Assembly (NCBI GenBank): GCA_900321715.1
Contig: ONXC01000003.1
Span: 113,401 to 177,400, forward strand
Reading direction: 5' to 3'
Source of the DNA: an uncultured Bacteroidales bacterium
Lineage (GTDB): Bacteria; Bacteroidota; Bacteroidia; Bacteroidales; UBA932
Length of the DNA stretch: 64,000 nucleotides
Shown here: piece by piece, positions 1 through 64,000 of the stretch
Layout of the letters: every line of letters starts with the position of its first letter
Position numbering within the stretch: the first letter of the stretch is position 1
Position numbers and translations under genes: made by a program
The notes under the pieces: generated by a model
Database searches by the model: none
What the model was told of the DNA's origin: nothing
What the model saw: the letters and a program-made list of their open reading frames with translations, nothing else

Positions 1-1066
1 TTCCACCACGGGTTCCAACGGGATAGTTGGCTACCTCAGGGGCACTGCCGGAGGCCTGGCGAACCAGGAAGATGGACTCCACGTCCGATGTTGCGTTGTT
101 CTTGATGAAATAGTTGCCATAGTCCCTGTTTACGGGCATATGCCAGTCCGGATAGGTCCTGGCACCCTCACCAAAGCCGAAGCCCTTGGCAAATATGGCC
201 TGGCGCATCTTAATCACGTCATTTGCGGCCGATGCTGCCCTTTCCCATTTCTCCACGTCATCCATGGGGTTGTTGCGGGGGCTTGCGGCATAGAGGAGCA
301 CGCGGGCCTTGACGGCGAGGGCCGCCGTGCGGTCCCATCGGCCTGTCTCATCACGGAAATTCCAGTTTGTGACGTCTGCGATGGCGTTTTCAGGGGTCTC
401 GTCAAGAGCCACCCTCCAGTCCAGGTTGAGCTGGTCCAGGTGGTTGTCGATAAGCTTAACGATGTGCTCCACAACTTCGTCGTAGCTGGCCTGACGGGCA
501 AGTCCGGTCTCCGGGTCTATGATGGGAACGCCGCCGTACATCTTCAGAAGCTCTCCGTAGTAGTAAGCCTCTGCGATGTAGGCCTCGGCTCTCTGCCAGC
601 CAAGGTTGATGCAGTCACGCATGTAAGCCTTGGGCTGCTCAGTGCTGTAGATGCTGCCGTCCGGGTTATACACCGTGCTGGTGTCCCTGTTCAGGGCCAG
701 GAACTCTTCCCCGTCCTTGGCGTATTCCAGGAAGAAATGCGCCGCGCGGATGCCCTCATAGTAGTTGGTGTACTTATATGAGAGCGGGTTTAGATCGGCC
801 GATAGAAGGCCCCTGTTGAAGGTTTGGGCTTCAGATGTGGGGGCCGCCTGCTCTGCTTCGTCCGAAGCGCTGGCAAAGAGGTTACCGTCAATCACGTTGA
901 AGCCGTTTCCCATAGGGGTATAATAAGCATAGGCAAAGCTTGTCAGGGTGCTGGAACGGGTCTGGAGCCTGTCCATGGTGTCAAACACGTCTATGCGGGT
1001 GTCCAGGAATTTGGAGCAGGCGCATAATGAGAGCGCCGCTGCAAGTATGATGTAAATCCTCTTCAT
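1..1066 (-). CDS. SusD/RagB-family lipoprotein, 3' end outside window
   Basis: Open from an ATG at 1066 to the window edge, about 355 codons, so the C-terminus is not seen. The N-terminus is a lipoprotein signal with cysteines at residues 15 and 17 (SLCAC), followed by CSKFLDTRIDVFDTMDRLQT. SusD proteins are surface lipoproteins that close over the paired SusC barrel and bind glycan. The TPR-like text typical of the family is visible (WQRAEAYIAEAYYYGELLKMYGGVP, followed by RTAALAVKARVLLYAASP). It starts 3 bp after the stop of the upstream SusC at 1070 and is the last visible gene of a four-gene operon transcribed leftwards. The substrate cannot be told. The family call is firm. Confidence 0.9.
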   Translation of the reverse strand, partial: MKRIYIILAAALSLCACSKFLDTRIDVFDTMDRLQTRSSTLTSFAYAYYTPMGNGFNVIDGNLFASASDEAEQAAPTSEAQTFNRGLLSADLNPLSYKYTNYYEGIRAAHFFLEYAKDGEEFLALNRDTSTVYNPDGSIYSTEQPKAYMRDCINLGWQRAEAYIAEAYYYGELLKMYGGVPIIDPETGLARQASYDEVVEHIVKLIDNHLDQLNLDWRVALDETPENAIADVTNWNFRDETGRWDRTAALAVKARVLLYAASPRNNPMDDVEKWERAASAANDVIKMRQAIFAKGFGFGEGARTYPDWHMPVNRDYGNYFIKNNATSDVESIFLVRQASGSAPEVANYPVGTRGG

Positions 1067-1069
1067 ATC

Positions 1070-13439: not shown

Positions 13440-14165
13440 TTATTCGGGTTTATCCCATTCAAATGCCTTTACAGAAGTATCCCAGCTCTTGATTTCGAAT
13501 GTGGCGTTCTTGGACTCCTTATCCTTGTCCAGATAGTTGACGAACTTGTACACTATCTTTGTAGCATCATCAACCCAATAATCGGCCTTGACTACAAAAT
13601 CATAATCGTAGCGGGTACATTCAACGCCCAGGATTGTTTCTTTGTCGGATGTCGCCTCACCGTATTTTTTGCAGTTGCCAGCCGGGACACCGGCATCAAA
13701 CAGGACATGACATTCGGAGTTCTTGGCAAATCCGGCGAAGTTCAGGTAACTCTCATCACCGCTGGTAAGAAGATTGGTCCACTTAACCGTGCTGTCTTCC
13801 TGCAAGGCCCCGCCAAAGGCTTTCAATGTTTTGCCGTCTTTGGCAAATTGGCAATAGAGATATAATACATAACGATAGCCCCTGTTCTCGTAGAACCATT
13901 CATTCCCCAATTTAATGAGGGTAATGTCTTCTTCCGCAGTGTTATACGAAGGCTGATTCTTCATTACAATCTTCACATTGAGGGGGAATGTTGCCTCCAG
14001 GACCTTGGAATCCATCGTCTGGTCGGTCTGGTCGGTCTGTTCGTTACCGTTGCCATTTCCATTTTCATTCCCGTTCACTTTGTCATCGGGAACTAATGTT
14101 TTAACGCAGGCTGCGAGCATTGAAGCACCAGCCAGGAGCATGATTGCCGTAAAAAACTTCTTCAT
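13440..14165 (-). CDS. Lipoprotein of unknown function
   Basis: A 241-residue lipoprotein (MLAACVK lipobox, Cys at about 20) with an unusual low-complexity linker of Asn-Gly and Asp-Gln-Thr repeats (about 30-50). The folded part is rich in Tyr and beta-strand text, and I do not recognise its family. It precedes the DUF1566-like lipoprotein by 12 bp. A purine-rich AAGGA stretch lies just before the ATG. Because both genes sit in the island and are lipid-anchored, they are probably surface accessory proteins; any specific role would be a guess. Confidence 0.7.
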   Translation of the reverse strand: MKKFFTAIMLLAGASMLAACVKTLVPDDKVNGNENGNGNGNEQTDQTDQTMDSKVLEATFPLNVKIVMKNQPSYNTAEEDITLIKLGNEWFYENRGYRYVLYLYCQFAKDGKTLKAFGGALQEDSTVKWTNLLTSGDESYLNFAGFAKNSECHVLFDAGVPAGNCKKYGEATSDKETILGVECTRYDYDFVVKADYWVDDATKIVYKFVNYLDKDKESKNATFEIKSWDTSVKAFEWDKPE

Positions 14166-14190
14166 TTCCTTAGTGTTTTGTTTAAATATG

Positions 14191-14322
14191 CTATAAGAGT
14201 TTTTGCGCCACCGCTTTCATCAACATTTCCCCGGTGGTGGCCGCATTGAATTTTGACTTGAGTCGCTGCCGGTACCATTTGATAGTTAGTTTCCGCCTAC
14301 AAAGTACGTAAATCACAAGCAT
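14191..14322 (-). pseudogene. Remnant of a LuxR-type HTH regulator C-terminus
   Basis: Reading leftwards, the frame gives LTIKWYRQRLKSKFN, then AATTGEMLMKAVAQKLL and a stop at 14191. This lines up with the C-terminal HTH of the intact TPR-LuxR regulator next door (QTIKWRRQRLLAKFD, then ARNTAEMLSKAREIGLL). The part before the recognition helix is not HTH-like, so only the last 35 or so codons survive. It points to a lost second copy of the regulator, in opposite orientation, in cassette 1. Confidence 0.6.
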
Positions 14323-14404
14323 ATGAGACTTATACAAAAGTATAAAAATGAGCCGTGTCTGTGGTTTTTTTACCCTTGGAACTCTAAAAATGTGTCGCTT
14401 TTAC

Positions 14405-14412
14405 TAACTTTG
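14405..14412 (+). promoter_or_regulatory. -7 box (TAACTTTG) of the TPR-LuxR regulator
   Basis: TAACTTTG ends 7 nt before the ATG at 14420, leaving almost no 5' leader. No good -33 element is at the normal spacing. Confidence 0.55.
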
Positions 14413-14419
14413 CCCTACC

Positions 14420-15661
14420 ATGAAGCGTCTTTTAATCATACTTTGTTTGATACAGATCTACGCCACTCCGGCAAATGCGCAGTACAACGACCACAGGGAT
14501 AGGAAACTAGATTCCCTGGAGAATGTGGTGACCGGATGGACACCAGAGCGCCTTGCAAATGCCCCTTTTGAAACCAGGGCCGATGTATGCATTGCTTTTT
14601 CGCAATTGATGTATGGATATGAGCGCATCAACCCGGACCGTTCCATGTATTCTGCCAGAAGAGCCTACGACCTGGGCAATGAACTTAAATCCCTCTACCA
14701 GCCCTATCTTGCCTCCAAGTTCATCGGCCAGCTTTTCTATAATAAGGAACAGTATGACAGCACCATCTTCTACTATCGCGTAGCTTTGGGTTATCTGGAC
14801 CGGATGGCAGCAGGAGAGGCAGGTCCGGATACTCCGGATGGCTATCCTCAGGAAAAGATTGACGATGCCGCTTCCAGCCTCTATGGTAACATCGGCAACC
14901 TTTACTATGAAATCGACTCCCTGCCGCAGGCCATGTCTTACTACGCCAAAGCAGGCGAAATCTTCAAGAAATACGACTGGAAAATCAGCAGTTCCATCCT
15001 GGAACACAATATGGGCGATATCTGGGCCCACGAGGGGAATGACGCCAAGGCTGTCGAGTGCTATAACACAGCCATCAGCTATGCACAGGAGGCCGATGAT
15101 TCCTTATGGATGGCATCACCTAAGTTGGGACTCGGTGCTCTCTTTATGCGACAGGGCAAAGTCACAAAGGCTTTAAAGTATCTTCATGAGGCCGATGAAT
15201 ACTACTCTAAGCATCAAGATCAGGAGTACTACGACCGAATCGCTACGTTGGACATTATGGGGCAGGCCTACCAGACACAGAAACGGCAGCGATCCATGTT
15301 GGCAACAGCTTTTGCCGTTCTGGCCCTGGTCCTGCTGTCACTCCTGATCATAACCCGTCGGGCGCTGCGCCTGAAAAGAGAGAACGTCGCGGCAGACGAA
15401 GCCATCGGAGAGGCCCTGACCCAGCTGGAAATGACAGACTCGCTGTTCCGGCTAAAGATGGACCAGAATGTGCAGCTGAGCAGAGGAGAACAGGAAATCC
15501 TTCCCATGATTGCCGAAGGACTCACCAGCAAGGACATCGCAAAACGCCTTTTTGTCACGGAACAGACAATCAAATGGCGCCGCCAGCGTCTTCTCGCAAA
15601 GTTCGACGCCAGAAACACGGCAGAAATGCTTTCAAAAGCACGCGAGATAGGATTGCTATAA
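14420..15661 (+). CDS. TPR transmembrane regulator with LuxR/GerE HTH
   Basis: A 413-residue protein: signal peptide (about 1-20), a periplasmic TPR array (about 25-285, for example SSLYGNIGNLYYEIDSLPQA and LKYLHEADEYYSKH), one membrane helix (about 292-312, ATAFAVLALVLLSLLI), a short coiled segment, and a C-terminal LuxR-type HTH (about 345-410, LSRGEQEILPMIAEGLTSKD, KRLFVTEQTIKWRRQRLLAKF). Such one-component TPR-LuxR membrane regulators are common in Bacteroidota. The divergent lipoprotein pair at 12711-14165 is the likely target. A -7 box lies 7 nt before the ATG. A degraded second copy of the same HTH lies at 14191-14322. Confidence 0.82.
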   Translation: MKRLLIILCLIQIYATPANAQYNDHRDRKLDSLENVVTGWTPERLANAPFETRADVCIAFSQLMYGYERINPDRSMYSARRAYDLGNELKSLYQPYLASKFIGQLFYNKEQYDSTIFYYRVALGYLDRMAAGEAGPDTPDGYPQEKIDDAASSLYGNIGNLYYEIDSLPQAMSYYAKAGEIFKKYDWKISSSILEHNMGDIWAHEGNDAKAVECYNTAISYAQEADDSLWMASPKLGLGALFMRQGKVTKALKYLHEADEYYSKHQDQEYYDRIATLDIMGQAYQTQKRQRSMLATAFAVLALVLLSLLIITRRALRLKRENVAADEAIGEALTQLEMTDSLFRLKMDQNVQLSRGEQEILPMIAEGLTSKDIAKRLFVTEQTIKWRRQRLLAKFDARNTAEMLSKAREIGLL

Positions 15662-15671
15662 CCTTTTTAGT

Positions 15672-15726
15672 TGTCCGATTTTTTCGGACACTTCACTTCC
15701 TTCCGCTATAAGTTTCCGCTTTAGGT
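15672..15726 (+). repeat. 55-bp exact copy of a piece of the BRO-N gene
   Basis: Identical over 55 bp to 20172-20226, which lies inside the BRO-N coding sequence at 19529-20377, in the same orientation and exactly 4500 bp apart. It includes the inverted repeat TGTCCGA-N5-TCGGACA. Here it lies just after the TPR-LuxR gene and has no open frame of its own, so it reads as what is left of a lost BRO-N gene. Confidence 0.85.
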
Positions 15727-15732
15727 ATTAGT

Positions 15733-15820
15733 GCGGGAGATGTGACATTTTTTGGCACATCTCCTGCAAAAAACGCCCATTTTTGCGGGTAGTGTGACTT
15801 TATTGGGCTCATCACCCGCA
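15733..15820. repeat. Two adjacent long hairpins in an intergenic gap
   Basis: Hairpin 1: GCGGGAGATGTG (15733-15744) with CACATCTCCTGC (15756-15767), 12 bp with one G-T pair. Hairpin 2: TGCGGGT (15784-15790) with ACCCGCA (15814-15820), extendable through the less perfect inner bases. The arms of the two hairpins are related to each other (GCGGG cores), as in REP/BIME-type intergenic elements. Nothing here codes. Confidence 0.6.
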
Positions 15821-15824
15821 CTTT

Positions 15825-15843
15825 CACCTCGGGGACAAAAAAG
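15825..15843 (+). repeat. Third copy of the tRNA-Leu 3'-end repeat (internal att-like site)
   Basis: CACCTCGGGGACAAAAAAG differs from the tRNA-Leu 3' end and its downstream bases by one base. As at the other two copies, it runs straight into a terminator hairpin, but here of different sequence. It divides the island into two cassettes. Confidence 0.65.
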
Positions 15844-15874
15844 GCCTCGCTACTTGCGAAGCCTTTTCTTTTTT
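15837..15874 (+). terminator. Terminator hairpin at the cassette junction
   Basis: AAAGGCCTCGC and GCGAAGCCTTT pair around loop TACTT and are followed by a T-rich run. A and T tracts on both sides make it work in either direction. It closes the TPR-LuxR unit. Confidence 0.75.
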
Positions 15875-16014
15875 AGTTGTCCGTTTTCATCGGATAACTG
15901 TTGAATCAAACGGAATAGCGGACCGGGTCTAAAACCGCTTTTGCCGTGAATCCAAACAATTTCAATCAATCGCATCTTGGAGGGATTGGTGGCTAAAGCA
16001 TTAAGAAACATATA
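15850..16014 (-). pseudogene. Possible gene remnant, unrecognised
   Basis: A minus-strand frame ends here with NALATNPSKMRLIEIVWIHG, then KSGFRPGPLFRLIQQLSDENGQLKKKRLRK. The text is protein-like, with a hydrophobic strand, a charged loop and an end that could form a coil. Upstream the frame runs back into the helicase start region at 16103-16227 and looks random there. Its last codons overlap a terminator hairpin. It may be the tail of a lost island gene. I cannot name a family and it may be non-coding. Confidence 0.3.
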
Positions 16015-16079
16015 GGCTTGCATGTGATCCAAGATGTGGTCAGAATCAGTGTTAACAATGAGGGTTCGAAAAAAATAAG

Positions 16080-16087
16080 TAACTTTG
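16080..16087 (+). promoter_or_regulatory. -7 box (TAACTTTG) of the helicase gene
   Basis: TAACTTTG ends 15 nt before the ATG at 16103. An in-frame TTG at 16085 lies inside this box and so cannot be the start; this fixes the start at 16103. Confidence 0.6.
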
Positions 16088-16102
16088 CGTTCGCAAAGAT
16101 TA

Positions 16103-18982
16103 ATGTCCATTTTTGATGCCATATTCTCCCGGCGAGGCAAGCTGAACGTGACTCCCCAGAAAACGGAGCCAACCATCGTTATGCCGGATGCGCCCACACA
16201 AGAGTATGCGTCACTCCTGCACTTCACACAGAGTTTTAATTCACTCTTGCAGGCCGATAAATACTTGGCCCGTAGCGACTATCGACAGATGATTGATGAT
16301 TATGCAGAGATCAACACCTTCTTTGCAAATCTCAAGACAGCTAAGACGCTTGGGTATTACTGCTCGGCTAACGGCATTCAGGAAGACGCCATCGAATCCT
16401 TCCTCCACAACTATTCTGATCTTGCCAATTTGAAAGAAGGCTCCATCGGCATCCAACAGCACAATCATTCCTTCCTACAGAGGCACCTGGAAACCGATAA
16501 GCACTATCTGGACACGGTCTTATCCAAAGTCGATCCTGCCATCTCCCTGGATGAAGAGCAGCGCAAGGTGGTTCTCACAGACGAAGATTATATGCTGGTA
16601 GTGGCTGGCGCAGGAGCAGGAAAGACCACCACGGTGGCCGCCAAAGTGAAGTACCTGGTCGAGAAAAAGGGCGTCAAACCAGAGCAGATTCTTGTTATCT
16701 CCTTCACAAATAAAGCCGTTGGAGAACTTCAAGACAAAATTAACAAGGCGCTGAAAATCAATTGCCCAGTCACTACATTCCATAAGACCGGTTACGCGAT
16801 CCTCCGAAAGCAGGATGCAGATAAGAAGAATGTGGTGGACAGCGGCTATATGTTTGATGTCATCAATAACTATCTGAAGAACGATGTCCTCCGGGAGTCG
16901 GATATGGTAAATAAACTGATTCTGTTCTTCGGCAGTTATTTCGATGCGCCATACGAGGGCGATGACCTTAACGCCTTTTTCAACTACATTTCGAAGGCCG
17001 ATTTCACCACGATGCGTTCCAATATGAACGAGTACGTGGAGACCATCACCAACAAGCGTACAGGCAAATCCATCACAATCAACTACGAATCCCTCCGCTC
17101 TTCGCAGGAGGTGATGATTGCCAACTTCCTGTACCTACACAAGATTGACTATGAATATGAGCGGCCCTACCCTTACGGATTCCGCCACTCACACAAGCCA
17201 TACACCCCTGACTTTGTCATCATACAAGGAGATCGTACCATATACATCGAGCATTTCGGTATCACCGAAGACGGAAAGAACAATCGTTACTCCAAAGCTG
17301 AACAGAATCGATACAAGAAGGAAGTCAACGATAAGATTCTCTTCCATCGTGAACACGGCACCGAGTTGATATATACCTTCTCTGCCTACAATGATGGGCG
17401 CCCGTTCCTTGAGCATCTGGAGGAACAGTTGAAGGAGAAAGGCATTGTTCTGGACCGCCGCTCCGATATGGAGGTCTATCAGAAGATTGTTTCTACGGAG
17501 GAGAACAAATACATCTTCAAACTCACGCGCCTCATTTGCGCCTTCATCCAGAACTTCAAGACCAACGGTTATGATACCGACAAATTCCGTGAGATGCAGC
17601 GGATGACCGATAATGTCCGCACAAAACTCTTCCTGGATGTTTGTCACCAGAGTTATCTGGAGTACTCCAAGAAGTTGAAGGAACGTGGTGCCGTGGACTT
17701 CGAGGACATGATAAATGACTCCGCCAAGATACTGCAGGAGCAGGAGGAAATCGGCGAGAAACTCAATTTTAAGTACGTTATCATCGATGAATATCAAGAC
17801 ATATCCCGACAGCGTTTCGATCTTGCACGGGCGCTTTCTAACGTCTGTGACGCCAAGATTATCGCTGTAGGAGACGACTGGCAGTCCATCTATGCTTACG
17901 CTGGCTCGGACATCACACTCTTCACCCACTTCTCCGACATTATGGGCTATGGAGAAGAATTGAAAATTTCCAAGACCTACCGTAATTCCCAGGAGGTAAT
18001 CGACATCGCCGGCAGTTTCATCCAGAAGAATTCTTCGCAAATTCAGAAGTCCCTCGTCAGCCCGAAGCATATTCAGCGGCCGATAATCATTGAGGCATAC
18101 TCGGAGGAAGCCGACAAGGTGCTGACGGAAGGCAAAGGTGGCAAGTTCTACCTGCGTGCCCAGGCTGTCGAGCGCTGCATCGGACAGATTCTCGAATCCA
18201 ATAAGAATGAAGGAAAACCGGAAAACTCGTCCATCCTGCTCATTGGTCGATACAACTTCGACGGATTCCACCTTGCCAAGACCGGCCTCTTCTTCCTCAA
18301 TGACAAGACTGGCGAGGTCAAGTCCAAGGCTTACCCGAAGGCGAAGATTACCTTCCTGACCGCGCACCGTGCGAAGGGTCTCGGCTACGACAACGTCATC
18401 ATCATTAATGCTGCTAATGCCGTCTACGGCTTCCCGTCCAAGATAGAAGATGATCCGGTGATGAAACTGGTCATCAAGGAAGACCGCACAATTGAATACG
18501 CAGAGGAACGTCGTCTTTTCTATGTGGCGATGACCCGTACAAAGAATCGTGTTTATATTGTGGTACCCCAGCAGCGCCCGTCCCGATTCGTGGCAGAACT
18601 GATTCAGGACTATTCGGCAGTCCACGTTAACGGTGACCTGGACATCTCCAAGACTGACTCGCCGGACATCTCAATGATTAAACGCTGCCCGATATGTGGC
18701 TACCCACTACGCGTCCGTCAGAAGAAAGACTTCGGCCTGCGTCTCTGGCTCTGCACAAATGAGCCGGAAATCTGTGACTTTATGACCAACGACCTCTCCG
18801 GCGGCATACTACCCATCCTCAAATGTGACTGCTGCAAGGATGGCTATCTGATTGTCCGGAAGAAAGATTACCAGCCGTTCCTTGGCTGTACGAACTATAA
18901 AGATGACAAGAGCGGCTGCAACCGTAGAATCAACCTTACATACTATGAGAATATGCTAAAGCGAGGCGAAATCGAGCTATAG
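16103..18982 (+). CDS. UvrD/Rep-like (helicase IV-type) SF1 helicase with C-terminal zinc fingers
   Basis: A 959-residue DNA helicase. SF1 motifs are complete: Walker A AGAGAGKTTT (about 168-177), VISFTNKAVGEL, Walker B IIDEYQD (about 559-565), GDDWQSIYAYAG (about 590), FLTAHRAKGLGYDNVI (about 750) and RRLFYVAMTRTKNRVYIVV (about 801). Between motifs I and II is a nuclease-like stretch (about 345-385: LHKIDYEYERPYP, KPYTPDFVIIQGDRTIYIEH) that resembles a PD-(D/E)xK core. The C-terminus has Cys pairs of the topoisomerase zinc-ribbon type (CPIC at about 860, CDCC at about 908, CTNYKDDKSGC at about 929). It is the main gene of cassette 2. Helicase IV-like repair is the safe reading; a phage-defence role is possible given its mobile setting. 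Its stop touches the convergent gene at 18977. Confidence 0.88.
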   Translation: MSIFDAIFSRRGKLNVTPQKTEPTIVMPDAPTQEYASLLHFTQSFNSLLQADKYLARSDYRQMIDDYAEINTFFANLKTAKTLGYYCSANGIQEDAIESFLHNYSDLANLKEGSIGIQQHNHSFLQRHLETDKHYLDTVLSKVDPAISLDEEQRKVVLTDEDYMLVVAGAGAGKTTTVAAKVKYLVEKKGVKPEQILVISFTNKAVGELQDKINKALKINCPVTTFHKTGYAILRKQDADKKNVVDSGYMFDVINNYLKNDVLRESDMVNKLILFFGSYFDAPYEGDDLNAFFNYISKADFTTMRSNMNEYVETITNKRTGKSITINYESLRSSQEVMIANFLYLHKIDYEYERPYPYGFRHSHKPYTPDFVIIQGDRTIYIEHFGITEDGKNNRYSKAEQNRYKKEVNDKILFHREHGTELIYTFSAYNDGRPFLEHLEEQLKEKGIVLDRRSDMEVYQKIVSTEENKYIFKLTRLICAFIQNFKTNGYDTDKFREMQRMTDNVRTKLFLDVCHQSYLEYSKKLKERGAVDFEDMINDSAKILQEQEEIGEKLNFKYVIIDEYQDISRQRFDLARALSNVCDAKIIAVGDDWQSIYAYAGSDITLFTHFSDIMGYGEELKISKTYRNSQEVIDIAGSFIQKNSSQIQKSLVSPKHIQRPIIIEAYSEEADKVLTEGKGGKFYLRAQAVERCIGQILESNKNEGKPENSSILLIGRYNFDGFHLAKTGLFFLNDKTGEVKSKAYPKAKITFLTAHRAKGLGYDNVIIINAANAVYGFPSKIEDDPVMKLVIKEDRTIEYAEERRLFYVAMTRTKNRVYIVVPQQRPSRFVAELIQDYSAVHVNGDLDISKTDSPDISMIKRCPICGYPLRVRQKKDFGLRLWLCTNEPEICDFMTNDLSGGILPILKCDCCKDGYLIVRKKDYQPFLGCTNYKDDKSGCNRRINLTYYENMLKRGEIEL

Positions 18983-19513
18983 CTTGAAAAGATTCTCAAG
19001 GATAAAGTGCTGCGCGTTGGCATCGTAGGAGATAGCAAGGTATTGTCCATGAGTGCCATCTCTCCATGTGGATGTTATTCCAATGGATGTCCCGAGTTCT
19101 GTCGGAGCCTTATATTTGTGACCATCGCTTCCTTCTCGCTCTTCAAGATACCCTACCGAAACTAACCATTGTGTTACCTTTGCTGCTACCAACGGCTTCA
19201 TGTTTTCAGGAATAACCCGATTGATTTCCTTGACGAACATTGCAATTCCTGTCTTATCGGTAATAGATACGTTCGCAGCGATTTCCGGAGTGAGTTGGAA
19301 TTCCCTCTCATATTGCTTTTGAGGTATAGACTTCTTATTCGCCACGTCTTCAAGCAGATTGGAAACGAAAAACAAGCAGCGAGAAATGTGAACGTTATTC
19401 ACGATGTCGCTATCAGGAACGATACTGCCGTCAATAGGATTGATTCCGTTAGCAAGTTTGTTTATCCAGTCAATTGCGACCTTAATTTTGTTAAGTTCAT
19501 CCACAGTAACCAT
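18977..19513 (-). CDS. Hypothetical protein, convergent with the helicase
   Basis: A 178-residue soluble protein with no signal peptide. The N-terminal half is helical (VDELNKIKVAIDWINKLANG, ISRCLFFVSNLLEDVA). The C-terminal half (KVTQWLVSVGYLEEREGSDG, followed by KYKAPTELGTSIGITSTWRD) reads like a winged helix with a beta wing. I do not recognise the family. It overlaps the helicase stop by 6 bp in convergent orientation and follows the BRO-N gene by 15 bp on the same strand, so BRO-N and this gene probably form an operon. Confidence 0.65.
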   Translation of the reverse strand: MVTVDELNKIKVAIDWINKLANGINPIDGSIVPDSDIVNNVHISRCLFFVSNLLEDVANKKSIPQKQYEREFQLTPEIAANVSITDKTGIAMFVKEINRVIPENMKPLVAAKVTQWLVSVGYLEEREGSDGHKYKAPTELGTSIGITSTWRDGTHGQYLAISYDANAQHFILENLFKL

Positions 19514-19528
19514 ATAATTATTATTAAC

Positions 19529-20377
19529 TTATTGTTCATCTATTTCTTTTGTTGTTTCCGGTGAATCCAATGACTTCGCATTCTCCGATGAAATGACACT
19601 TCTGCCCAGTTGGTCCTCTAAAGCCTCGCGGGCCACTTTAGCAATACCGCCTCCTCTGCGTGCGATACTGATGCTATGGGCAATTGTCTCCGGATCTTCA
19701 TTCTGCGAAATCTCTCTGGTTGCCACCTCGGCCAGTGTAGTAAGTGCACTTTCCGTATCCGTCATATTGTCCCGGAGGTTCTCTTTTTTCAGGCCCTTGA
19801 GATGCTTATACTCTTTTGCCGTCATGCCGGACCAGACCTCATAAATAGCATTGGTAAGGATTGCATATTGCTTTTCTTTCACGCCCACACGTTTCCACTC
19901 GTCTGTAAGTTTCTTTCTCTCCTTCTTGCCCTGCAATCGTTGATTGATCCACTCATCTGAATACCCTTTGCGGCGATACATATCAATGGCCCGATCGATT
20001 GATATCTCCGGATCGATCATTTCGTCAATCCTTTCGCTGGCAACTCTGGCAATCCATAATTTAATTGGCTCAACTTTTGGTGATGGTATCGATTGAACAA
20101 GGCGGAAAAGTTGTTCTTGGTCGGCGACATCCGTGTCACGCATTTTGCCATCCGGGGCCTTCATTTTCAAGTGTCCGATTTTTTCGGACACTTCACTTCC
20201 TTCCGCTATAAGTTTCCGCTTTAGGTCAGACCAATACTTTCTGGGACGATCTGTCTCCACAAGTGCAGCAATGATATCGATAACGGAGAAATACCACTTC
20301 TCCTCTGCATCGTTCCAAGCAGTTCTTATTTGCTTCTCTCCAAATAGTTGTATTTGTTCCAAGTTCGACATAACCAT
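19529..20377 (-). CDS. BRO-N domain protein (phage antirepressor-like)
   Basis: A 282-residue protein. An N-terminal BRO-N DNA-binding domain (about 5-110: KQIRTAWNDAEEKWYFSVID, ETDRPRKYWSDLKRKL, then DTDVADQEQLFRLVQSIPSP) is followed by the charged helical region typical of Bacteroidota BRO proteins (KGYSDEWINQRLQGKKERKK, AIYEVWSGMTAKEYKHLKGL) and a tail with GGGIAKVAREALEDQLG. BRO-N proteins come from phages and mobile elements and act as antirepressor-like DNA binders. The start is at 20377 (ATGGTTATG, with 20371 as alternative) because a promoter lies directly upstream; codons further out show no conservation. A 55-bp piece is duplicated at 15672-15726. It is the last gene before the right end of the island. 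Confidence 0.82.
   Translation of the reverse strand: MVMSNLEQIQLFGEKQIRTAWNDAEEKWYFSVIDIIAALVETDRPRKYWSDLKRKLIAEGSEVSEKIGHLKMKAPDGKMRDTDVADQEQLFRLVQSIPSPKVEPIKLWIARVASERIDEMIDPEISIDRAIDMYRRKGYSDEWINQRLQGKKERKKLTDEWKRVGVKEKQYAILTNAIYEVWSGMTAKEYKHLKGLKKENLRDNMTDTESALTTLAEVATREISQNEDPETIAHSISIARRGGGIAKVAREALEDQLGRSVISSENAKSLDSPETTKEIDEQ
20172..20226 (+). repeat. 55-bp segment shared with 15672-15726
   Basis: Lies inside the BRO-N gene (codons for KRKLIAEGSEVSEKIG and neighbours). The other copy is non-coding and in the same orientation. Confidence 0.85.
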
Positions 20378-20391
20378 TTTTGTTAGTTCTA

Positions 20392-20423
20392 CAAATCTAC
20401 AAACAACTATTATCAGTTGCAAG
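20392..20423 (-). promoter_or_regulatory. Promoter of the BRO-N gene (CTTG, 20 nt, TAGATTTG)
   Basis: On the minus strand CTTG (20423-20420), a 20-nt spacer and TAGATTTG (20399-20392). The box ends 14 nt before the ATG at 20377. Confidence 0.65.
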
Positions 20424-20505
20424 AGAAAAGACTTTGGTTTCGGCAAAACGACATGCACCGCCCTAAATTTTAGTCGGCTTTCGGCCCCCGAATCTCACGC
20501 ATCGG

Positions 20506-23542: not shown

Positions 23543-24979
23543 ATGCCTAATGATATCATAAATGAGTTCACCAAGGCCGAATACAAGGAAGGCTTTGTGA
23601 CAGACGTGGAGCAGGAGTTCATCCCAAAGGGGTTGAACGAGGATATCGTGCGTATGATATCGGCCCGGAAGGAGGAGCCTGAGTGGCTCCTTGAATTCCG
23701 CCTTGATGCCCTTCATAAGTGGGAAAAGATGCCCCAGCCGGACTGGGCACATCTTGATATGCCGGGAATCAACTACCAGGACATCATCTACTTTGCCGCT
23801 CCCAAAAAGGACAAGGACCGCCCCAAGGAGATAGACCCCAAGCTTGCCGAAACCTTTGACAAACTTGGCATTCCCCTCAAGGAGCGCGATGTCCTTGCTG
23901 GCGTTGTGGCCGTGGACGCGGTGTTCGATTCCGTCTCCGTCACCACTACTTTCCGGAAAACCCTGGCGGAAAAAGGCATCATATTCTGCAGCTTCTCAGA
24001 GGCCGTGAAGGATCACCCGGACCTTGTCCGTAAGTACCTTGCAAGCGTTGTACCAGCCTCAGACAACTACTTTGCGGCACTTAACAGCGCGGTTTTCTCC
24101 GACGGCTCCTTCTGCTACATCCCCAAGGGCGTCCGCTGCCCCATGGAGCTCTCCAGCTATTTCCGCATAAACGCGCGCGGCACCGGCCAGTTTGAGCGCA
24201 CGCTCATTGTGGCCGATGAAGACTCCTACGTCTCCTACATGGAAGGCTGCACCGCCCCAATGAGAGACGAGCAGCAGCTTCACGCCGCCGTGGTGGAGAT
24301 AATAGTTGAGAAAGGGGCCGATGTAAAGTACTCCACGGTCCAGAACTGGTACCCCGGAGACGCAGACGGCAAGGGCGGCATCCTCAATCTTGTCACCAAG
24401 CGCGGAATCTGCAAGGGTGAAGGCTCCCACCTTTCCTGGACGCAGGTTGAAACCGGCAGCGCCATCACCTGGAAATACCCTTCCACCATACTGAAAGGGG
24501 ATTTTTCATCATCTGAATTCTACTCCGTGGCCGTCACCAACAATCATCAGCAGGCCGATACCGGCACCAAGATGATCCACCTTGGCCGAGGCACAAAGAG
24601 CCGCATCGTGAGCAAGGGAATATCGGCCGGAGTAAGCCAGAACAGTTACCGCGGCCTTGTGAGGATGGGTGCAGGCGCTCAGAACGCCCGCAACTACTCC
24701 CAGTGCGACAGCCTCCTGATTGGTTCCAAATGCGGCGCGCACACGTTCCCGGATATCCGCAGCGCCAATCCATCGGCCACGGTGGAGCACGAGGCCACAA
24801 CCTCAAAGATTTCAGAAGACCAGCTCTTCTACTGCAACCAGAGGGGCCTTGACCCCGAAGAAGCCGTGGGCCTCATTGTGAACGGCTATGCCCGTGAGGT
24901 CCTTTCCCGTCTCCCCATGGAGTTTGCCGTCGAGGCCCAGAAACTCCTCCAGGTATCACTTGAAGGCTCCGTTGGATAA
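23543..24979 (+). CDS. sufB: Fe-S cluster assembly scaffold SufB
   Basis: 478 residues, normal length for SufB. Recognisable family text: [20 protein letters not shown] near the N-terminus, [36 protein letters not shown], the beta-helix core ([20 protein letters not shown], then [16 protein letters not shown]), [19 protein letters not shown] and the C-terminal [20 protein letters not shown]. SufB, SufC and SufD form the SufBC2D complex that builds Fe-S clusters in the cytoplasm. It is the first gene of a compact operon; its TAA overlaps the ATG of the PnuC-like gene. Its own -7 box lies 6 nt upstream. sufS, sufE and sufU are not in the window. Confidence 0.97.
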
Positions 24980-33900: not shown

Positions 33901-34091
33901 CCGAGTCACTTACCCGCAAGATCCTCATTTCCAATGTTCGCGTCTACGTTGCCGCAGAGAATCTTCTCACTCTAACCGGCTATCATGGATTTGACCCTGA
34001 AATCGCTTCCGGCGGAACGTCCCTCGGTATCGACTACGGTGTTTATCCCCAGGCCCGCACCTTTACCGCAGGCATTAGCGTAGCATTCTAA
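30961..34091 (+). CDS. SusC/RagA-family TonB-linked transporter (beta-glucan locus)
   Basis: 1043 residues. Signal peptide (about 1-20, ending VFAQ), carboxypeptidase-regulatory-like domain (about 21-95, ISGLVQDNSGYPVIGAAVVV), TonB-box-like strand LDDVVVIGYGVQKK (about 101), plug (about 115-230: IRVRGTGTINNSDPLYIVDG, then RAANGVILVTTKKG) and a barrel ending FTAGISVAF. It imports oligosaccharides across the outer membrane with the SusD encoded 18 bp downstream. Codon use differs from the rest of the window: the GGCCGAT heptamer appears only once in this gene and not at all in the next 5 kb. Confidence 0.96.
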
Positions 34092-34109
34092 TCAATGGAG
34101 GGAAAAGTT

Positions 34110-35627: not shown

Positions 35628-35652
35628 CAACCATTAATCAATAACAACCACA

Positions 35653-37116: not shown

Positions 37117-37123
37117 TTGACTT

Positions 37124-38221
37124 ATGAAATCCATCCACGCTTTGACTATCCTTCCTTTCATTCTTTTGGCAGTTTGCTGTTCCCAGCAGCCTGTTGCGGT
37201 CCCGGAAAACAGTATCGCTTTTTCTCCTGAAAAGCTTGAATTTGAGCAGCAGGGAGGTGAGCTGAAGTTCTACGTAACCTCTTCGGCCGCCGGAATACAG
37301 GTTTTCAGTGACGACGATTGGGTGTCCAGCATAGAGCCTCCTTACTCAGTTGACAAGGATGCAACTTTCACAGTCAAGGTAAAACCAAACAGCCTTACTA
37401 AGACACGTGAAGGGAAAGTGGTAATCAAAGTCGGACAGACAAGGGCATATCTGCCCGTCGTACAGCCCGGTCTCGATCCCGTTGAATCCGGGATCGAGAC
37501 TCCCGAGGGCTATACGCTCGTATGGCACGATGAATTCGACGACTACGAGGGTCTGCCTGCATCGGCCGACTGGAAATACCAGACCGGAGATGGTGGTTGG
37601 GGTAACAATGAGCTTCAAGACTATGTAGCCGGGGAATACAATGGCGTCAAAATAGCCGAAGTATCCAACGGTACACTAAAAGTTCATGCAAAGAAAATAG
37701 ACGGAAAGGTACGGTCCGTGCGTCTTAACACCCGCAAGAGTTGGACGTATGGCTGGATTGAAGCCTCAATCAAGCTTCCTTCCGGAAAAGGCACATGGCC
37801 CGCATTCTGGATGATGCCCTCCCAGTTCACCGGCTGGCCCAAGGACGGTGAAATTGATATTATGGAAGAGGTTGGCTATAATCCCAACTACTGCAGTGCC
37901 TCTATCCATTGCAATCGCTACAACAATGGTGGTACCGCTACGGAACATGCCGAAAGATACATCGCTGGGTCGCAGACATCATTCCACGTATACGGAATGG
38001 AATGGACAGAGGACTATATGACCTTCTATCAGGACGGAAAAGCCATCCTCACCTACAAGAATAACGGCAAAGGTCACGACTATTGGCCGTTCTACAAACC
38101 TTTCTACATTATCCTGAACCTGGCTTGGGGTGGAAGTTGGGGTGGCGCTCAAGGCGTAGACGAGTCCTGCCTGCCCACCGCAATGGAAGTGGATTGGGTC
38201 AGGGTGTTCCAAATGCTTTAA
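37124..38221 (+). CDS. BACON-GH16 endo-beta-glucanase lipoprotein (laminarinase-like)
   Basis: 365 residues, lipoprotein (LAVCC). A BACON domain (about 30-115, SPEKLEFEQQGGELKFYVTS, WVSSIEPPYSVDKD) is followed by a GH16 catalytic domain (about 120-363: YTLVWHDEFDDYEGLPASAD, GWIEASIKLPSGKGTWPAFW). The catalytic signature GEIDIMEEV puts the nucleophile at Glu243, helper Asp245 and acid/base Glu248. FYIILNLAWGGSWGG is typical for bacterial laminarinases and lichenases. Surface endo-cleavage of beta-1,3 or mixed-linkage glucan is the likely job. It is the last gene of the locus, 7 bp after the binding protein. Confidence 0.93.
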   Translation: MKSIHALTILPFILLAVCCSQQPVAVPENSIAFSPEKLEFEQQGGELKFYVTSSAAGIQVFSDDDWVSSIEPPYSVDKDATFTVKVKPNSLTKTREGKVVIKVGQTRAYLPVVQPGLDPVESGIETPEGYTLVWHDEFDDYEGLPASADWKYQTGDGGWGNNELQDYVAGEYNGVKIAEVSNGTLKVHAKKIDGKVRSVRLNTRKSWTYGWIEASIKLPSGKGTWPAFWMMPSQFTGWPKDGEIDIMEEVGYNPNYCSASIHCNRYNNGGTATEHAERYIAGSQTSFHVYGMEWTEDYMTFYQDGKAILTYKNNGKGHDYWPFYKPFYIILNLAWGGSWGGAQGVDESCLPTAMEVDWVRVFQML

Positions 38222-38269
38222 CCTCCCCATGGAGCTAACGGCTTGATTGTTAGCGAGTTAATAGATTGA

Positions 38270-38291
38270 CGGTGCGCCGAAAGGTGCACCG
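38270..38291 (+). terminator. Hairpin after the beta-glucan locus
   Basis: CGGTGCGCC and GGTGCACCG pair (one G-T) around a GAAA tetraloop, 49 nt after the GH16 stop. No T run follows, so termination is likely but not certain. Confidence 0.5.
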
Positions 38292-38344
38292 CCAATTGTG
38301 TATCAGCCTCAATACCAGCCACTTACCTCCACGCTGGTGGCTGC

Positions 38345-38743
38345 CTACAAGGTGACGCTTAGAAGTTCGTGGGCAATTTCGTGAATTCCGGATTCAATCT
38401 TCCTGGCCTGAGAGTCTGAGATATAGGTGTCGCCAAGTTTGTAATGCCTCATCAGCGATGGATTGATCCCGATTCGTTTTGCCAGTTTAGATACGTTGAG
38501 AAACTCGAACAAATCAAAGAATGCGGAAACGTCGTATTTGTATTCAAACTCCGGATTAAGCAGTTCCGCAGGAATATCCGAAGGGGAATCATACGACTCC
38601 AATACCTCCTGAAAGGAATTCAGAAAGTCTTGTTTGGCCTCAGCGGCAGTGGCGCCCTCGCCAATAATGACCGACTTGGTGTTTTTTGTGAAAGCGCCGA
38701 ATCCGTTTTCGTCCTTTTCTATCACAACGGTAATCTTGCCCAT
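38345..38743 (-). CDS. hicB: HicB-family antitoxin
   Basis: 132 residues. The N-terminal partial RNase-H-like HicB fold (KITVVIEKDENGFGAFTKNT, EGATAAEAKQDFLNSFQEVL) and a C-terminal helix-turn-helix (NVSKLAKRIGINPSLMRHYK) for binding its own operator. It starts 1 nt after the hicA stop, same strand, so it is the second gene of the toxin-antitoxin operon. The HicB/HicA pair controls mRNA cleavage in the cytoplasm. Confidence 0.9.
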   Translation of the reverse strand: MGKITVVIEKDENGFGAFTKNTKSVIIGEGATAAEAKQDFLNSFQEVLESYDSPSDIPAELLNPEFEYKYDVSAFFDLFEFLNVSKLAKRIGINPSLMRHYKLGDTYISDSQARKIESGIHEIAHELLSVTL

Positions 38744-55294: not shown

Positions 55295-57691
55295 ATGATA
55301 CTTTCAGACCTTAAGACCGGAGAAAAGGCGGTGATTGTGCGTGTGCACGGTCACGGCAGTTTCCGTAAACGTCTTATAGAGATGGGTTTCATCAAGGGGA
55401 AGGAAGTGAGGGTTGTCCTCAACGCCCCCCTGAAGGACCCTATCGAATATGAAATAATCGGCTATAAAGTCTCTCTCCGGAGAGAGGAAGCACGTCTTAT
55501 AGAAGTGGTAACGGAGGAGGAAGCCAGGGAGGCGCTGGTAAGCGATGAGCACCTTCAGGGACTTCCGGCCGATATGGAAGAGCCCCGGCGCCTGGGAGAA
55601 GCCATGGCCCATGTTGCCGAGGAACGTCACCACTCCATCCGTGTTGCGCTTGTCGGCAATCCCAACTGCGGAAAAACTTCACTCTTCAACATTGCCTCCG
55701 GAAGCCACGAGCACGTAGGCAATTACTCAGGTGTGACGGTGGACGCCAAGGAAGGCCATTTCAAGTTTCGGGATTATGAAATAACCTTGGTGGACCTGCC
55801 CGGCACCTACTCCCTCAGCGCCTACTCTCCGGAAGAGCTTTATGTCCGTAAAAACCTGCTGGAAACCACCCCCGACGTTGTCGTGAACGTGGTTGACGCC
55901 TCAAACATTGAGCGTAACCTCTATCTCACAACCCAGCTCATAGACATGAACCTGAGGGTTGTGATGGCCCTCAACATGTACGACGAACTTGAGCATAAGG
56001 GGGATAAACTGGACACCACGCAGCTGGGCTACCTCCTTGGCATGCCCGTATGCCCCACTGTTTCCCGTGACGGCCGCGGCATCCCGGAGCTCTTTGACAC
56101 CGTCATAAAGATATATGAAGGGGCCGATGACCGCCTTGCCCGCCACATTCACATCAACCACGGCGCAGAGATAGAAAAGAGCATAAAGAGAGTCCAGAGG
56201 CACATAGCATACAACGAGGAACTGAAGGCCACCTACTCCACCAGATACCTCACCATAAAATACCTGGAAGGGGATAAGGAGGTGGAGCGTCTTCTGTCCG
56301 GAAAGCCAAACATCGGGGATATCTCAGACGCCCGGGCCGATGAAATGGAGCGCGTGGAAGGCATCGTGGGCACCAATATGGAAAGCGCCATTGTGGATGC
56401 AAAGTACGCCTTCATCCAGGGCGCCCTTGCCGAGACCTACCACAAATATCAGGAAGAAAGGCCTCGCCGCACCATAACGGACAGGATAGACGCAATTGTC
56501 ACCAACCAGTGGGCTGCCTTCCCCATTTTCCTGGTGCTTCTGTGGTTCGTTTTCTGGGCAACGTTCACTATCGGCCAGTATCCTATGGACTGGATTGAGG
56601 CGGGGGTGAACTGGCTTGGGAACGCAGTTGGCTCCCTTATGGCCGATGGCTGGCTCAAGGATCTTGTTGTTGACGGCTGTATCGCGGGCGTAGGAAGCGT
56701 CCTTGTGTTCCTTCCCAACATCATGATCCTGTACTTTTTCATTTCCATAATGGAGGACAGCGGCTATATGGCCCGCGCGGCGTTCATCGTGGATAAACTG
56801 ATGCACAGGATCGGCCTTCACGGAAAGAGTTTCATCCCTATGGTGATGGGCTTCGGGTGCAACGTGCCGGCAATTATGGCCACCCGTTCCATCGAGAGCC
56901 GAAAGTCCCGCCTTGTCACCATGGCCATAATTCCGTTTATGTCCTGCGCGGGAAGGCTGCCCATATTCGTGCTCTTCGCAGGCGCTTTCTTCCCCGGAAG
57001 TCCCGCTACGGCGCTGCTTGGAATATACCTTCTGGGCATAGTTCTGGCCATATTATCGGCCCTTGTCATAGGGAAATTTGTCAAGGACGACGACCTCCCG
57101 TTTGTGATGGAACTGCCGCCGTACCGTATGCCCACCTGGAAAGCCACCTGGCGCCACACCTGGGAAAAGGGCAAGCAGTACCTTGAGAAGATGGCCACCA
57201 CCATCCTCATCTTTTCCGTTGCTATCTGGTTCCTGGGTTACTTCCCGCGTCACGCGGACCACACAGCTGCATATCAGCAGGAGCACTCGTACATCGGCAT
57301 GGTAGGTAAGGCCATTGAGCCCGCCATGGAGCCGCTTGGCTTCAACTGGAAGATGGATGTTGGCCTTCTTGCCGGCGTTGGCGCCAAGGAACTTGTCATA
57401 AGCACCCTCGGCGTTATGTATGCCCAGGACGGAGAGGAATACGAAGGTATGGGCGATGAGGACGATACCGCCCTCCAGGCTGCCCTCAAAGCCACGGTTC
57501 CCACCGCCGCCGCCCTTGCCTTCATGGTGTTTGTGCTGCTGTACTTCCCGTGCATCGCCACCTTCGTGGCCCTGAAGAACGAAACCGGCTCCTGGCGCTG
57601 GGCCATCCTCCTTTGCCTCTACACCATCCTCGTGGCCTGGATCTGCGCCTTCGCCGCCTTCCGTATCGGCCTTCTCATCTGGCCGGTGTAA
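55295..57691 (+). CDS. feoB: FeoA-FeoB fusion ferrous iron transporter
   Basis: 798 residues. A FeoA SH3-like domain (about 1-75, LIEMGFIKGKEVRVVLNAPL) is joined by an acidic linker to the FeoB G domain (G1 GNPNCGKTSL 121-130, G3 DLPGTYSLSAYSPEE 167-181, G4 NMYD) and the membrane part with two Gate repeats (about 400-795, GCNVPAIMATRSIESRKSRL, FMSCAGRLPIFVLFAG, GVGAKELVISTLGVM). FeoAB fusions are typical for Bacteroidota. It takes up Fe2+ under anaerobic conditions. The downstream gap holds several TGTAAAG half-sites. Confidence 0.97.
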   Translation: MILSDLKTGEKAVIVRVHGHGSFRKRLIEMGFIKGKEVRVVLNAPLKDPIEYEIIGYKVSLRREEARLIEVVTEEEAREALVSDEHLQGLPADMEEPRRLGEAMAHVAEERHHSIRVALVGNPNCGKTSLFNIASGSHEHVGNYSGVTVDAKEGHFKFRDYEITLVDLPGTYSLSAYSPEELYVRKNLLETTPDVVVNVVDASNIERNLYLTTQLIDMNLRVVMALNMYDELEHKGDKLDTTQLGYLLGMPVCPTVSRDGRGIPELFDTVIKIYEGADDRLARHIHINHGAEIEKSIKRVQRHIAYNEELKATYSTRYLTIKYLEGDKEVERLLSGKPNIGDISDARADEMERVEGIVGTNMESAIVDAKYAFIQGALAETYHKYQEERPRRTITDRIDAIVTNQWAAFPIFLVLLWFVFWATFTIGQYPMDWIEAGVNWLGNAVGSLMADGWLKDLVVDGCIAGVGSVLVFLPNIMILYFFISIMEDSGYMARAAFIVDKLMHRIGLHGKSFIPMVMGFGCNVPAIMATRSIESRKSRLVTMAIIPFMSCAGRLPIFVLFAGAFFPGSPATALLGIYLLGIVLAILSALVIGKFVKDDDLPFVMELPPYRMPTWKATWRHTWEKGKQYLEKMATTILIFSVAIWFLGYFPRHADHTAAYQQEHSYIGMVGKAIEPAMEPLGFNWKMDVGLLAGVGAKELVISTLGVMYAQDGEEYEGMGDEDDTALQAALKATVPTAAALAFMVFVLLYFPCIATFVALKNETGSWRWAILLCLYTILVAWICAFAAFRIGLLIWPV

Positions 57692-62833: not shown

Positions 62834-62836
62834 GTT

Positions 62837-64000
62837 ATGAAGAGTTTTTGGAACTTTCTGAAGAAGAACAAGTTATACGGGGTCATCAACCTCGTGGGCC
62901 TGACGGTGTCGATGGCCTTCGTGCTCCTGCTGGCGGTATATGTGCAGCGACAGCTATCCACGGATACTTTCCAGGAGAACGCCGACCGGATCTACGTGAT
63001 TGCCAATGAGGATAACGTTACGATGGGCTATTGGCTGGATAAGCACCTGAAAAACAATTTTCCTGAAATCGAGAAGGGTTGCTGCGTGGCCAATATGTCC
63101 TCCTCCGCCGCCTTTTCCATTGACGGGGAAAGGGTATATGGTAGCACCATGGCGGCAGACAGCACTTTTTTTGAGATATTCAGTTATGACCTGGTGAAGG
63201 GAAACAAGGCTGACTGGCGCGTTTCCTGGGACCGCTGTATGGTTAGCGAAGAGTTTGCTAACGCCAATTTCGGAGAAAAGGATCCCATCGGCCAGATTAT
63301 CCAATTCAATTATGAGGGTACTTTTCCCCTTACGGTCTGTGGCATCTACAAGGAATTCGGCAATTCCATCTTGAAGGCGCCCGACGTGTTGGTGCGCGGC
63401 GAGATGATGCCCAAGACCAATTCTTCCCACGATGAATATATGTCGAACGCCGGAGGCGGAATATGCTTTGTGATGGCATACCCGGGCGCCGACCTTCTGG
63501 CCCGGCAGGACGACATTCTGAGCTGGTGTGAAGAGCATTTCTGGGTCTACAAAAGCCAGTACGACAAGGTTCGGATTATTCCTCTCAGAGACATGTACTT
63601 TCTGAATGAAGGGATTAGATACGGGTCAGATACTATCCAGTTCGGCAACCGCAGCTTCGTAAACCTGCTTCTGGCTATGTGCCTGCTTCTGCTGGCCTTT
63701 GCTGTGTTGAACTATATCAATATGACCACGGCGCTGACCGGTTTCCGAGCCAAGGAAATGGCCACCCGGCGTCTGGTAGGAGCTGAGAAACGGAGCATTT
63801 TCCTCAAAGTTATCTCGGAAAGCACCATTATCTGTGCCATCTCGATGCTGCTGGCCATCCTGCTGGCCGAAGCGCTTGCGCCTACGGCCTCCCGGATTCT
63901 TGAGTACCAGGTATCCATTTTCAAGGCGATTACGCCTGTCAATGTGTTGCTTGTACTGGGCTTTATCGTGATACTCGGAATCCTGTCCGGCCTTGTGCCT
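62837..64000 (+). CDS. MacB/FtsX-type ABC permease, 3' end outside window
   Basis: Open from ATG 62837 to the window edge (about 388 codons). First membrane helix (about 17-37, VINLVGLTVSMAFVLLLAVY), a large periplasmic MacB_PCD domain (about 40-270, PIGQIIQFNYEGTFPLTVCG), then FtsX helices (SFVNLLLAMCLLLLAFAVLN, EMATRRLVGAEKRSIFLKVI with the typical R-x-L/V-G-A motif, VNVLLVLGFIVILGILSGLV). Its ATPase is not yet seen and is probably encoded downstream. It exports a small molecule, peptide or lipoprotein under sigma-54 control. Confidence 0.9.
   Translation, partial: MKSFWNFLKKNKLYGVINLVGLTVSMAFVLLLAVYVQRQLSTDTFQENADRIYVIANEDNVTMGYWLDKHLKNNFPEIEKGCCVANMSSSAAFSIDGERVYGSTMAADSTFFEIFSYDLVKGNKADWRVSWDRCMVSEEFANANFGEKDPIGQIIQFNYEGTFPLTVCGIYKEFGNSILKAPDVLVRGEMMPKTNSSHDEYMSNAGGGICFVMAYPGADLLARQDDILSWCEEHFWVYKSQYDKVRIIPLRDMYFLNEGIRYGSDTIQFGNRSFVNLLLAMCLLLLAFAVLNYINMTTALTGFRAKEMATRRLVGAEKRSIFLKVISESTIICAISMLLAILLAEALAPTASRILEYQVSIFKAITPVNVLLVLGFIVILGILSGLVP

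Follow-up and report, generated by a model that had tools for sequence, protein, structure and literature searches.

HIP1 (GCGATCGC) of cyanobacteria is a hyper-abundant short word whose sites are conserved and which occurs at low density in foreign DNA. To our knowledge, HIP1 is still without an agreed function; a sequence-directed repair bias has been proposed for it, and Vsr acts in a like manner. According to PMC4390886, other words replace HIP1 in some relatives, and HIP1 is accompanied by GATC and CGATCG methyltransferases. The palindromic form of HIP1 and these methyltransferases blur cause and effect. A second relevant class of words is the DNA uptake sequences (DUS) of the Neisseriaceae, which have a required trinucleotide core (CTG in Neisseria) and occur as dialects that differ between species (PMC3630211).

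The heptamer GGCCGAT (ATCGGCC in the opposite orientation) is a further hyper-abundant short word. The DNA analyzed is a stretch of 64 kb, referred to here as the window (G000:C10:113401-177400), from a draft genome (G000) of 2.04 Mb that is 80.6% complete. The window contains 105 copies of the motif (53 GGCCGAT and 52 ATCGGCC), or ~1.6 per kb, in agreement with the ~102 copies reported in the initial annotation. When the codons of 45 chosen ORFs were shuffled synonymously 300 times, with proteins and codon usage preserved, 15.2 +/- 3.6 coding copies were expected (maximum 25) and 101 were observed. The excess noted initially thus stands, while its size in window coding DNA is 6.6-fold rather than about tenfold. 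The whole genome possesses 3,279 copies (1,662 GGCCGAT and 1,617 ATCGGCC), versus 226 of the same pattern read backwards. Across 411,445 bases of this genome, 687 coding copies were found against the 87 predicted by the codon-preserving null (7.9-fold, z 64), and GGCCGAT ranks top of all 7-mers by extremeness under that null. Codon usage therefore does not explain the count, nor is the excess peculiar to the window.

The Markov backgrounds that the initial annotation had proposed gave differing outcomes. A first-order model predicts 3.4 copies outside called ORFs (31 kb of the genome), where 40 are observed. In contrast, the maximal-order test in the window yields 91 expected for 105 observed, because the sub-words of GGCCGAT are enriched too and mask the motif; it was dropped in favor of the codon-preserving null. 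The excess extends to each of the six frame/strand classes, as initially described; for instance, ATCGGCC in frame 2 occurs 210 times versus 4.9 expected. Strand counts are equal as well, at 522/537 over 621,649 bases (heterogeneity chi2 13.7, df 30, from counts per stretch, with origin and terminus unmapped), which speaks against a KOPS or typical Chi role, in keeping with the earlier argument. GGCCGAT differs from its own reverse complement, and its copies are spaced near-exponentially (close pairs being listed only up to 60 bases), with no excess of close pairs beyond 20 overlapping palindromes (ATCGGCCGAT) among the neighboring pairs of 1,059 copies. Extensions of the site give a consensus of about K-G-C-C-G-A-W, with GGCCGATA enriched 11.5-fold and GGGCCGAT 14.9-fold. 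Some intergenic copies lie in the loops of terminator-like hairpins, e.g., CCCGCAAAAAA-GGCCGAT-TTTTGCGGG.

Codon choice also follows the motif, as tallied in G000 plus three near relatives (L019-L021) and in 18 motif-poor loci. Ala between a G-ending codon and GAT is encoded by GCC in 332 of 354 cases (54/93 in motif-poor loci), whereas GCC serves for Ala in only 19 of 158 cases when C precedes and GAG follows (102/184). Similarly, for Ser of the TCN box, TCG is the codon used in 244 of 254 cases after an A-ending codon and before GCC, and in just 1 of 68 after C and before GGC (8/80 in motif-poor loci). In the former, site-forming context, motif-poor relatives use TCG in 8 of 23, so the override of codon preference claimed initially is borne out. 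One and the same base is thus favored next to some neighbors and disfavored next to others. Together with the codon nulls and the excess in all frames, this supports the earlier view that GGCCGAT is maintained at the DNA level and that codon usage is not its source.

A second genome-wide signal, absent from the initial annotation, is the depletion of CGA/TCG, which is the sole strongly depleted CG trinucleotide and from which GGCCGAT-like sites are exempt. In G000, CGA/TCG occurs at 0.46 of the codon null, compared with 0.90 for CGC, 1.14 for CGG, and 0.91 for CGT; among tetramers, TCGA is at 0.25, CGAG at 0.30, and GCGA at 0.36. Sense and antisense orientations alike show the depletion, as does DNA beyond the ORFs (0.69 of Markov expectation, with motif copies counted); therefore, it is no RNA or codon effect. 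In xCN codons before A, the share of G at the third base drops from 29% in motif-poor kin to 2.3%. Heptamers with a CGA core and zero to four mismatches to GGCCGAT occur at 7.88, 0.92, 0.36, 0.38, and 0.38 of the null, respectively, with the one-mismatch value carried by TGCCGAT (2.98) and GGCCGAA (2.05). One-off words that break the CGA core range from 0.86 to 1.48, the exception being GGCTGAT at 0.43. A decoy model with graded affinity was rejected, as depletion is flat across two to four mismatches. CpG deamination was likewise rejected as the cause of CGA loss, since T is not the main base to take the place of C or G in CGA at four-fold positions (Gly GGC before GA mostly becomes GGA). On the protein level, Ala-Glu dipeptides occur at 0.86 of expectation in bearer proteomes versus 1.09 in motif-poor kin, as if CGA avoidance extended to protein choice.

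Features of the window and one gene elsewhere in the genome are listed in Table 1. Both signals are weak in acquired-looking DNA. Three of the five genes in the first island have 0-1 motif copies, and the other two carry 4 and 3. Taken together, the ten genes of the two stretches show CGA ratios of 0.62-1.10 and mostly lower GC3, and eight of them have 0-1 copies. Of the other 35 window genes, 32 have CGA at 0.11-0.55, and the exceptions (0.62, 0.64, and 0.85) all lie past 59 kb. A comparison of the 182 genes that reach 900 bases or more in 411 kb gives a correlation of -0.32 between motif density and CGA ratio. Three motif-free gaps had been claimed initially. The one at 32.7-37.5 kb is indeed empty (32,660-37,561; the chance of a gap so long is ~0.03), whereas those at 12.46-14.58 and 17.0-20.5 kb contain copies at 13,581 and 18,078. 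The associated proposal that motif-poor stretches represent recently acquired DNA gains support from an independent signal, as CGA is nearer normal there. The first island also encodes a UvrD-family helicase of 965 aa (16085-18982), adjacent to ORFs that have no Pfam match. Intergenic ACCTGCGAC arrays, with units spaced by ~22 bp in both direct and inverted orientation, are located at 12650-12700, 20560-20730, and 44850-45070 of the window and elsewhere in the genome (L006). CGA persists in these arrays despite its rarity elsewhere, and ATCGGCC is embedded in some of them.

Table 1. Coordinates and properties of the features discussed (window positions unless a contig is given).
Feature	Coordinates	Strand	Properties	Basis
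GGCCGAT/ATCGGCC sites	1..64000	.	coding and non-coding, either strand	count and codon null
CGA/TCG depletion outside the site	1..64000	.	CGAG 0.33, TCGA 0.33, GCGA 0.45	codon null, window genes
Five-gene island	13443..20458	.	near-normal CGA, 0.73-1.10 of null; lower GC3, 0.45-0.63	
SufBD-core gene	23543..24979	+	6 motif copies (null 0.8); other CGA 0.30	
Second stretch, five genes	30960..38743	.	2 motif copies in ~7.8 kb; CGA 0.62-0.89; GC3 0.52-0.56	
FeoAB-type ferrous iron transporter gene	55295..57691	+	8 motif copies (own-codon null 1.8); other CGA 0.46	
MmeI-family (Type IIL-like) enzyme	L149 8810-11593 (G000:C20)		927 aa, full-length	

Conservation was scored in fifteen pairs as the number of window motif sites with conserved amino acids that are intact, relative to control heptamers. 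Of these sites, 11 of 14 were intact in L019 (9.0 for controls), 31/35 in L021 (20.4), 16/26 in L020 (10.1), 8/18 in L026 (5.3), 12/14 in L030 (4.0), and 12/17 in L033 (5.4). The flank-variant L052 retained 4/16 (5.5), and the motif-poor L036, L034, and L044 retained 2/10 (2.6), 4/15 (3.8), and 1/6 (1.5), respectively. Polarized changes were counted in 18 triples, whose counts are not independent because some branches recur among them. An ancestral C at a four-fold silent base was lost in 1 of 51 cases in the motif slot, in 23 of 97 at other C before GA, and in 69 of 457 at C before G and then C, G, or T. New bare CGA also arises less often: gain by C-to-G change occurred in 7/759 cases at CN before A versus 51/607 at CN before C or T, compared with 16/203 versus 22/180 in motif-poor relatives. 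Where an ancestral G at CN before A made CGA, it was lost in 6 of 6 cases in bearers versus 19 of 35 in motif-poor relatives. In 8 triples analyzed earlier there were 38/1,188 gains at CN before A versus 190/2,172 at CN before C, G, or T; gain is thus reduced ~9-fold in the larger set and 2.7-fold in the smaller, with the direction equal. The pattern tentatively favors fixation bias over CGA hypermutation.

The relatives that carry names are MAGs of Bacteroidales, chiefly of rumen and gut origin; the more distant ones include Candidatus Cryptobacteroides (L072, L073), and the genus is probably Cryptobacteroides. In an NrdD tree covering 66 of 81 sequences, one supported clade comprises 24 rows, of which 23 show the trait at least in part and L036 is without it (genome G109, GGCCGAT 1.3x, CGA 0.90). 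Over the 66 rows, motif and CGA values show a Spearman correlation of -0.61. As binary traits, they change only 4 and 6 times on the tree, leaving 4 independent pairs and no significance. The two signals go together among relatives, but mainly within one clade, so that the association is phylogenetically confounded, and it depends on few changes. By the cut-offs used here, 17 of the 66 loci show both signals, 41 neither, six the motif only (L061, L027, L032, L037, L040, L062), and two depletion only (L042, L043); L062 and L043 fall outside the clade.

Flank variants are specific to species. For example, in G088 (the genome of L052, CGA 0.58), GGCCGAA occurs 201 times versus 34 expected and exceeds GGCCGAT (90 versus 18), and in G108 (L043, CGA 0.71), TGCCGAT (58 versus 17) and GCCGATG (79 versus 20) are enriched. 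G096 (L037) and G107 (L062) have GGCCGAT at 5.0x and 4.2x with CGA at 0.87 and 0.90, respectively, and such motif enrichment with little CGA depletion means that the two signals may be separate. Both are present in G019 (5.1x/0.61), G028 (4.0x/0.78), and G005 (3.8x/0.62), which correspond to G094 (genome of L033), G105 (L027), and G106 (L042), given identical match coordinates. In a set of 36 further same-genus genomes, the rich ones are G019 (3,333 copies), G028 (2,598), G005 (1,795), and G003 (1,571), followed by G008 (715). The single 20-kb stretch of G003 that was read shows neither signal (motif 0.81; CGA 1.04). In a sample of 392 other genomes of the order, the densest by eye is G435, with ~0.41 per kb (910 copies in 2.2 Mb) versus 1.60 in G000. 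G053, a high-ratio genome of another family, was set aside, as GGCCGAT reaches just 2.6x and CGA loss is absent. The best heptamer in motif-poor kin (loci up to 22 kb) has a z of ~8 or less versus 9-16 in the strongest bearers. That the trait clusters in a single clade within a larger genus, and that the flanks vary by species, are, like the CGA depletion, additions to the initial annotation; the finding is confirmed as real and is larger than was stated there.

Several further observations were made during these surveys. A phage-like contig of the bearer G087 (L205, with a terminase match) has 4 motif copies versus 2.7, CGA at 0.71, and TCGA at 0.40; this is a single case, and contigs with neighboring numbers have the motif at 7.3x with CGA 0.44 (L207) and 2.8x with 0.77 (L206). 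In L067, from a Rikenellaceae MAG, GGCAAT is enriched (45 versus 16) and CATG depleted (17 versus 74), perhaps another such system. Four genomes of the order (G045, G143, G235, and G374) have 2, 0, 2, and 0 copies of GGCCGAT, compared with 37-507 of the reversed word, which may be read as avoidance of GGCC or of GGCCGAT itself. In G056, strands are unequal (GGCCGAT 383 versus 224). No CRISPR arrays that could link phages were found in 2.8 Mb, just five matches with periods of 51-74 bp (in L010, L037, L050, and L080), including a tandem array of 52-bp period at a contig end (L010 11554-11814). A search of the open-licence literature found no paper on GGCCGAT as a word or on Cryptobacteroides together with motif and methylation.

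The reading that we tentatively favor, at somewhat less than an even chance, is that GGCCGAT is a HIP1-type chromosome-wide signal kept by a putative factor that reads a CGA core and biases fixation. Such a factor would act on duplex DNA and would apparently not be a methyltransferase common to the clade. It would read the CGA core first and the flanks second; suitable flanks (K-G-C-CGA-W, with GGCCGAT as the optimum) would make a core favored, and bare CGA with other flanks would be disfavored. The outcome would be a weak fixation bias, via selection or biased conversion/repair, at thousands of mostly synonymous positions. One factor, probably a DNA-binding protein, may lie behind both signals, with the bias presumably in fixation and not in mutation. 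Against this reading, the causal gene was not found, the link between motif and CGA depletion comes down to the 4 independent pairs, and G107 and G096 have the motif with little depletion. In addition, G003 shows neither signal in its 20-kb stretch despite its 1,571 copies, suppression of CGA gain is weaker in the earlier 8 triples, hypermutable CGA could mimic part of the pattern, and much would be asked of selection if it had to act on tens of thousands of silent positions.

Next in order is a DNA uptake signal of the DUS/USS type, in which preferential uptake and recombination of fragments carrying GGCCGAT would spread the site, and fragments with bare cores would bind yet not be taken up. 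This is unlikely, although the density, strand balance, and all-frame presence fit, acquired-looking DNA is poor in the motif, and the CGA core with its GGCCGAT/GGCCGAA variants parallels the core and dialects of Neisseria DUS (PMC3630211). The ATPase of type IV pili and T2SS (PF00437) was over cut-off in 0 of 33 genomes, 29 of which had a weak sub-threshold match. Consequently, the uptake role that the initial annotation had suggested is weakened for machinery of the type IV pilus kind, and other uptake machinery may apply. Paired copies show no excess beyond the 20 palindromes, with near-exponential spacing, and we know of no description of bare-core depletion as a feature of DUS.

A mutation or repair ratchet, in which sequence-directed repair bias would make GGCCGAT and destroy other CGA without any function, is unlikely. 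It would account for the depletion of GGCTGAT, the C-to-T product (0.43 in G000 and 0.27 in the genome of L052), and for the complete loss of CGA-making ancestral G at CN before A. At four-fold sites, however, CGA is not replaced mainly through C-to-T change, and faster loss alone would poorly explain the reduced CGA gain (~9-fold and 2.7-fold), at least for the set with the ~9-fold reduction. Very-short-patch repair by a C5 methylase with Vsr was also rejected for the bearers searched: PF00145 had no match in G000, G019, G028, or G005 and one gene in G003, and Vsr (PF03852) had none in G000, G028, or G005 and one partial match in G019.

Quite unlikely, too, is a modification-free self mark, whereby one factor would penalize bare CGA and pass the full GGCCGAT. 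The factor might then be an uptake/recombination complex or a nuclease that scans the DNA, with the wording of the chromosome itself recognized as self, and incoming CGA-rich, site-poor DNA would be handled worse until rewritten.

That GGCCGAT is a methylation or restriction motif, i.e., the site of a methyltransferase such as a Type IIL enzyme, is improbable. Enzymes of the MmeI family recognize asymmetric sites of 6-7 bp, and G000 encodes such an enzyme (Table 1) with N-terminal, spacer, methylase, TRD, and C-terminal domains; an EamA transporter gene lies upstream and an ORF6N gene nearby. Among the 23 clade genomes that bear the motif, only 2 have the MmeI TRD, and the enzyme is missing from the close kin G085, G086, and G087, so this enzyme was rejected as the cause. 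Abundant HIP1 is accompanied by methyltransferases (PMC4390886), and Eco57I-family methylases (PF07669), the commonest of the families searched, exceed the cut-off in 11 of 23 bearers, with five strong and full-length. The motif-poor genomes G114, G118, and G126 have strong Eco57I matches as well. Matches over cut-off number 2 for PF01555, 6 for PF02384, 2 for PF20466, and 4 for PF02086 among the 23, and nine bearers have none in these four families or PF07669. The N6/N4, D12, and Eco57I-family methylases are thus scattered, and their lack in many bearers argues against a shared enzyme. In all, no methyltransferase from the six families searched is common to the motif-bearing genomes, in a non-exhaustive search that covered PF00145 in only 4 of 23 bearers and used incomplete MAGs in which a single absence means little; the methylation role suggested initially is accordingly not supported. 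Furthermore, non-orthodox R-M sites are mostly not avoided (PMC4687349), and enrichment would not follow from R-M.

A Chi-like signal of 5-8 bp for an AddAB/RecBCD nuclease is very improbable. The Chi sites of AddAB resemble GGCCGAT in length and density, but strand bias is absent here, one clade accounts for most of the bearers, and motif-poor kin have no replacement heptamer of similar strength (loci of up to 22 kb). Finally, codon usage or peptide composition has essentially no chance of yielding the excess: the commonest coding contexts are Ala-Asp, Ser-Ala, and Ile-Gly, yet these dipeptides reach only 1.07, 1.07, and 1.02 of expectation in bearers, and the synonymous-codon null and the copies outside ORFs refute it.

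GGCCGAT compares with known systems as follows. Like Chi, GGCCGAT is short, asymmetric, and genome-wide; unlike Chi, it has no strand bias and belongs mainly to one clade. As in restriction site avoidance, a short word (CGA) is depleted, although that word has only three bases, an enriched flank-dependent exception, and no common enzyme in the families searched. For the same reason it differs from an R-M or methylation motif with a cognate enzyme in all bearers, and it differs from very-short-patch repair in the four bearers G000, G028, G005, and G019. Like DUS, it has thousands of copies on both strands, a trinucleotide core, and dialects; it departs from DUS in that no pilus/T2SS ATPase exceeds the cut-off, its core is depleted outside the site, and paired copies show no excess beyond the 20 palindromes. 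The comparison with HIP1 drawn in the initial annotation is apt. GGCCGAT shares with HIP1 a genome-wide excess past codon and composition nulls and conservation at silent positions above control words, as well as low density in foreign-looking DNA and the replacement by other words in some relatives. It differs in being a non-palindromic, 7-bp word of Bacteroidales with no common methyltransferase in the families searched and with its own trinucleotide core depleted. In these genomes, GGCCGAT may help to mark DNA that was acquired recently. The clade offers a second, non-palindromic HIP1-like case. With sister species that are poor in the motif, variants in the flanks, and a core trinucleotide whose depletion is coupled to the site, it allows direct tests of what reads such a word.
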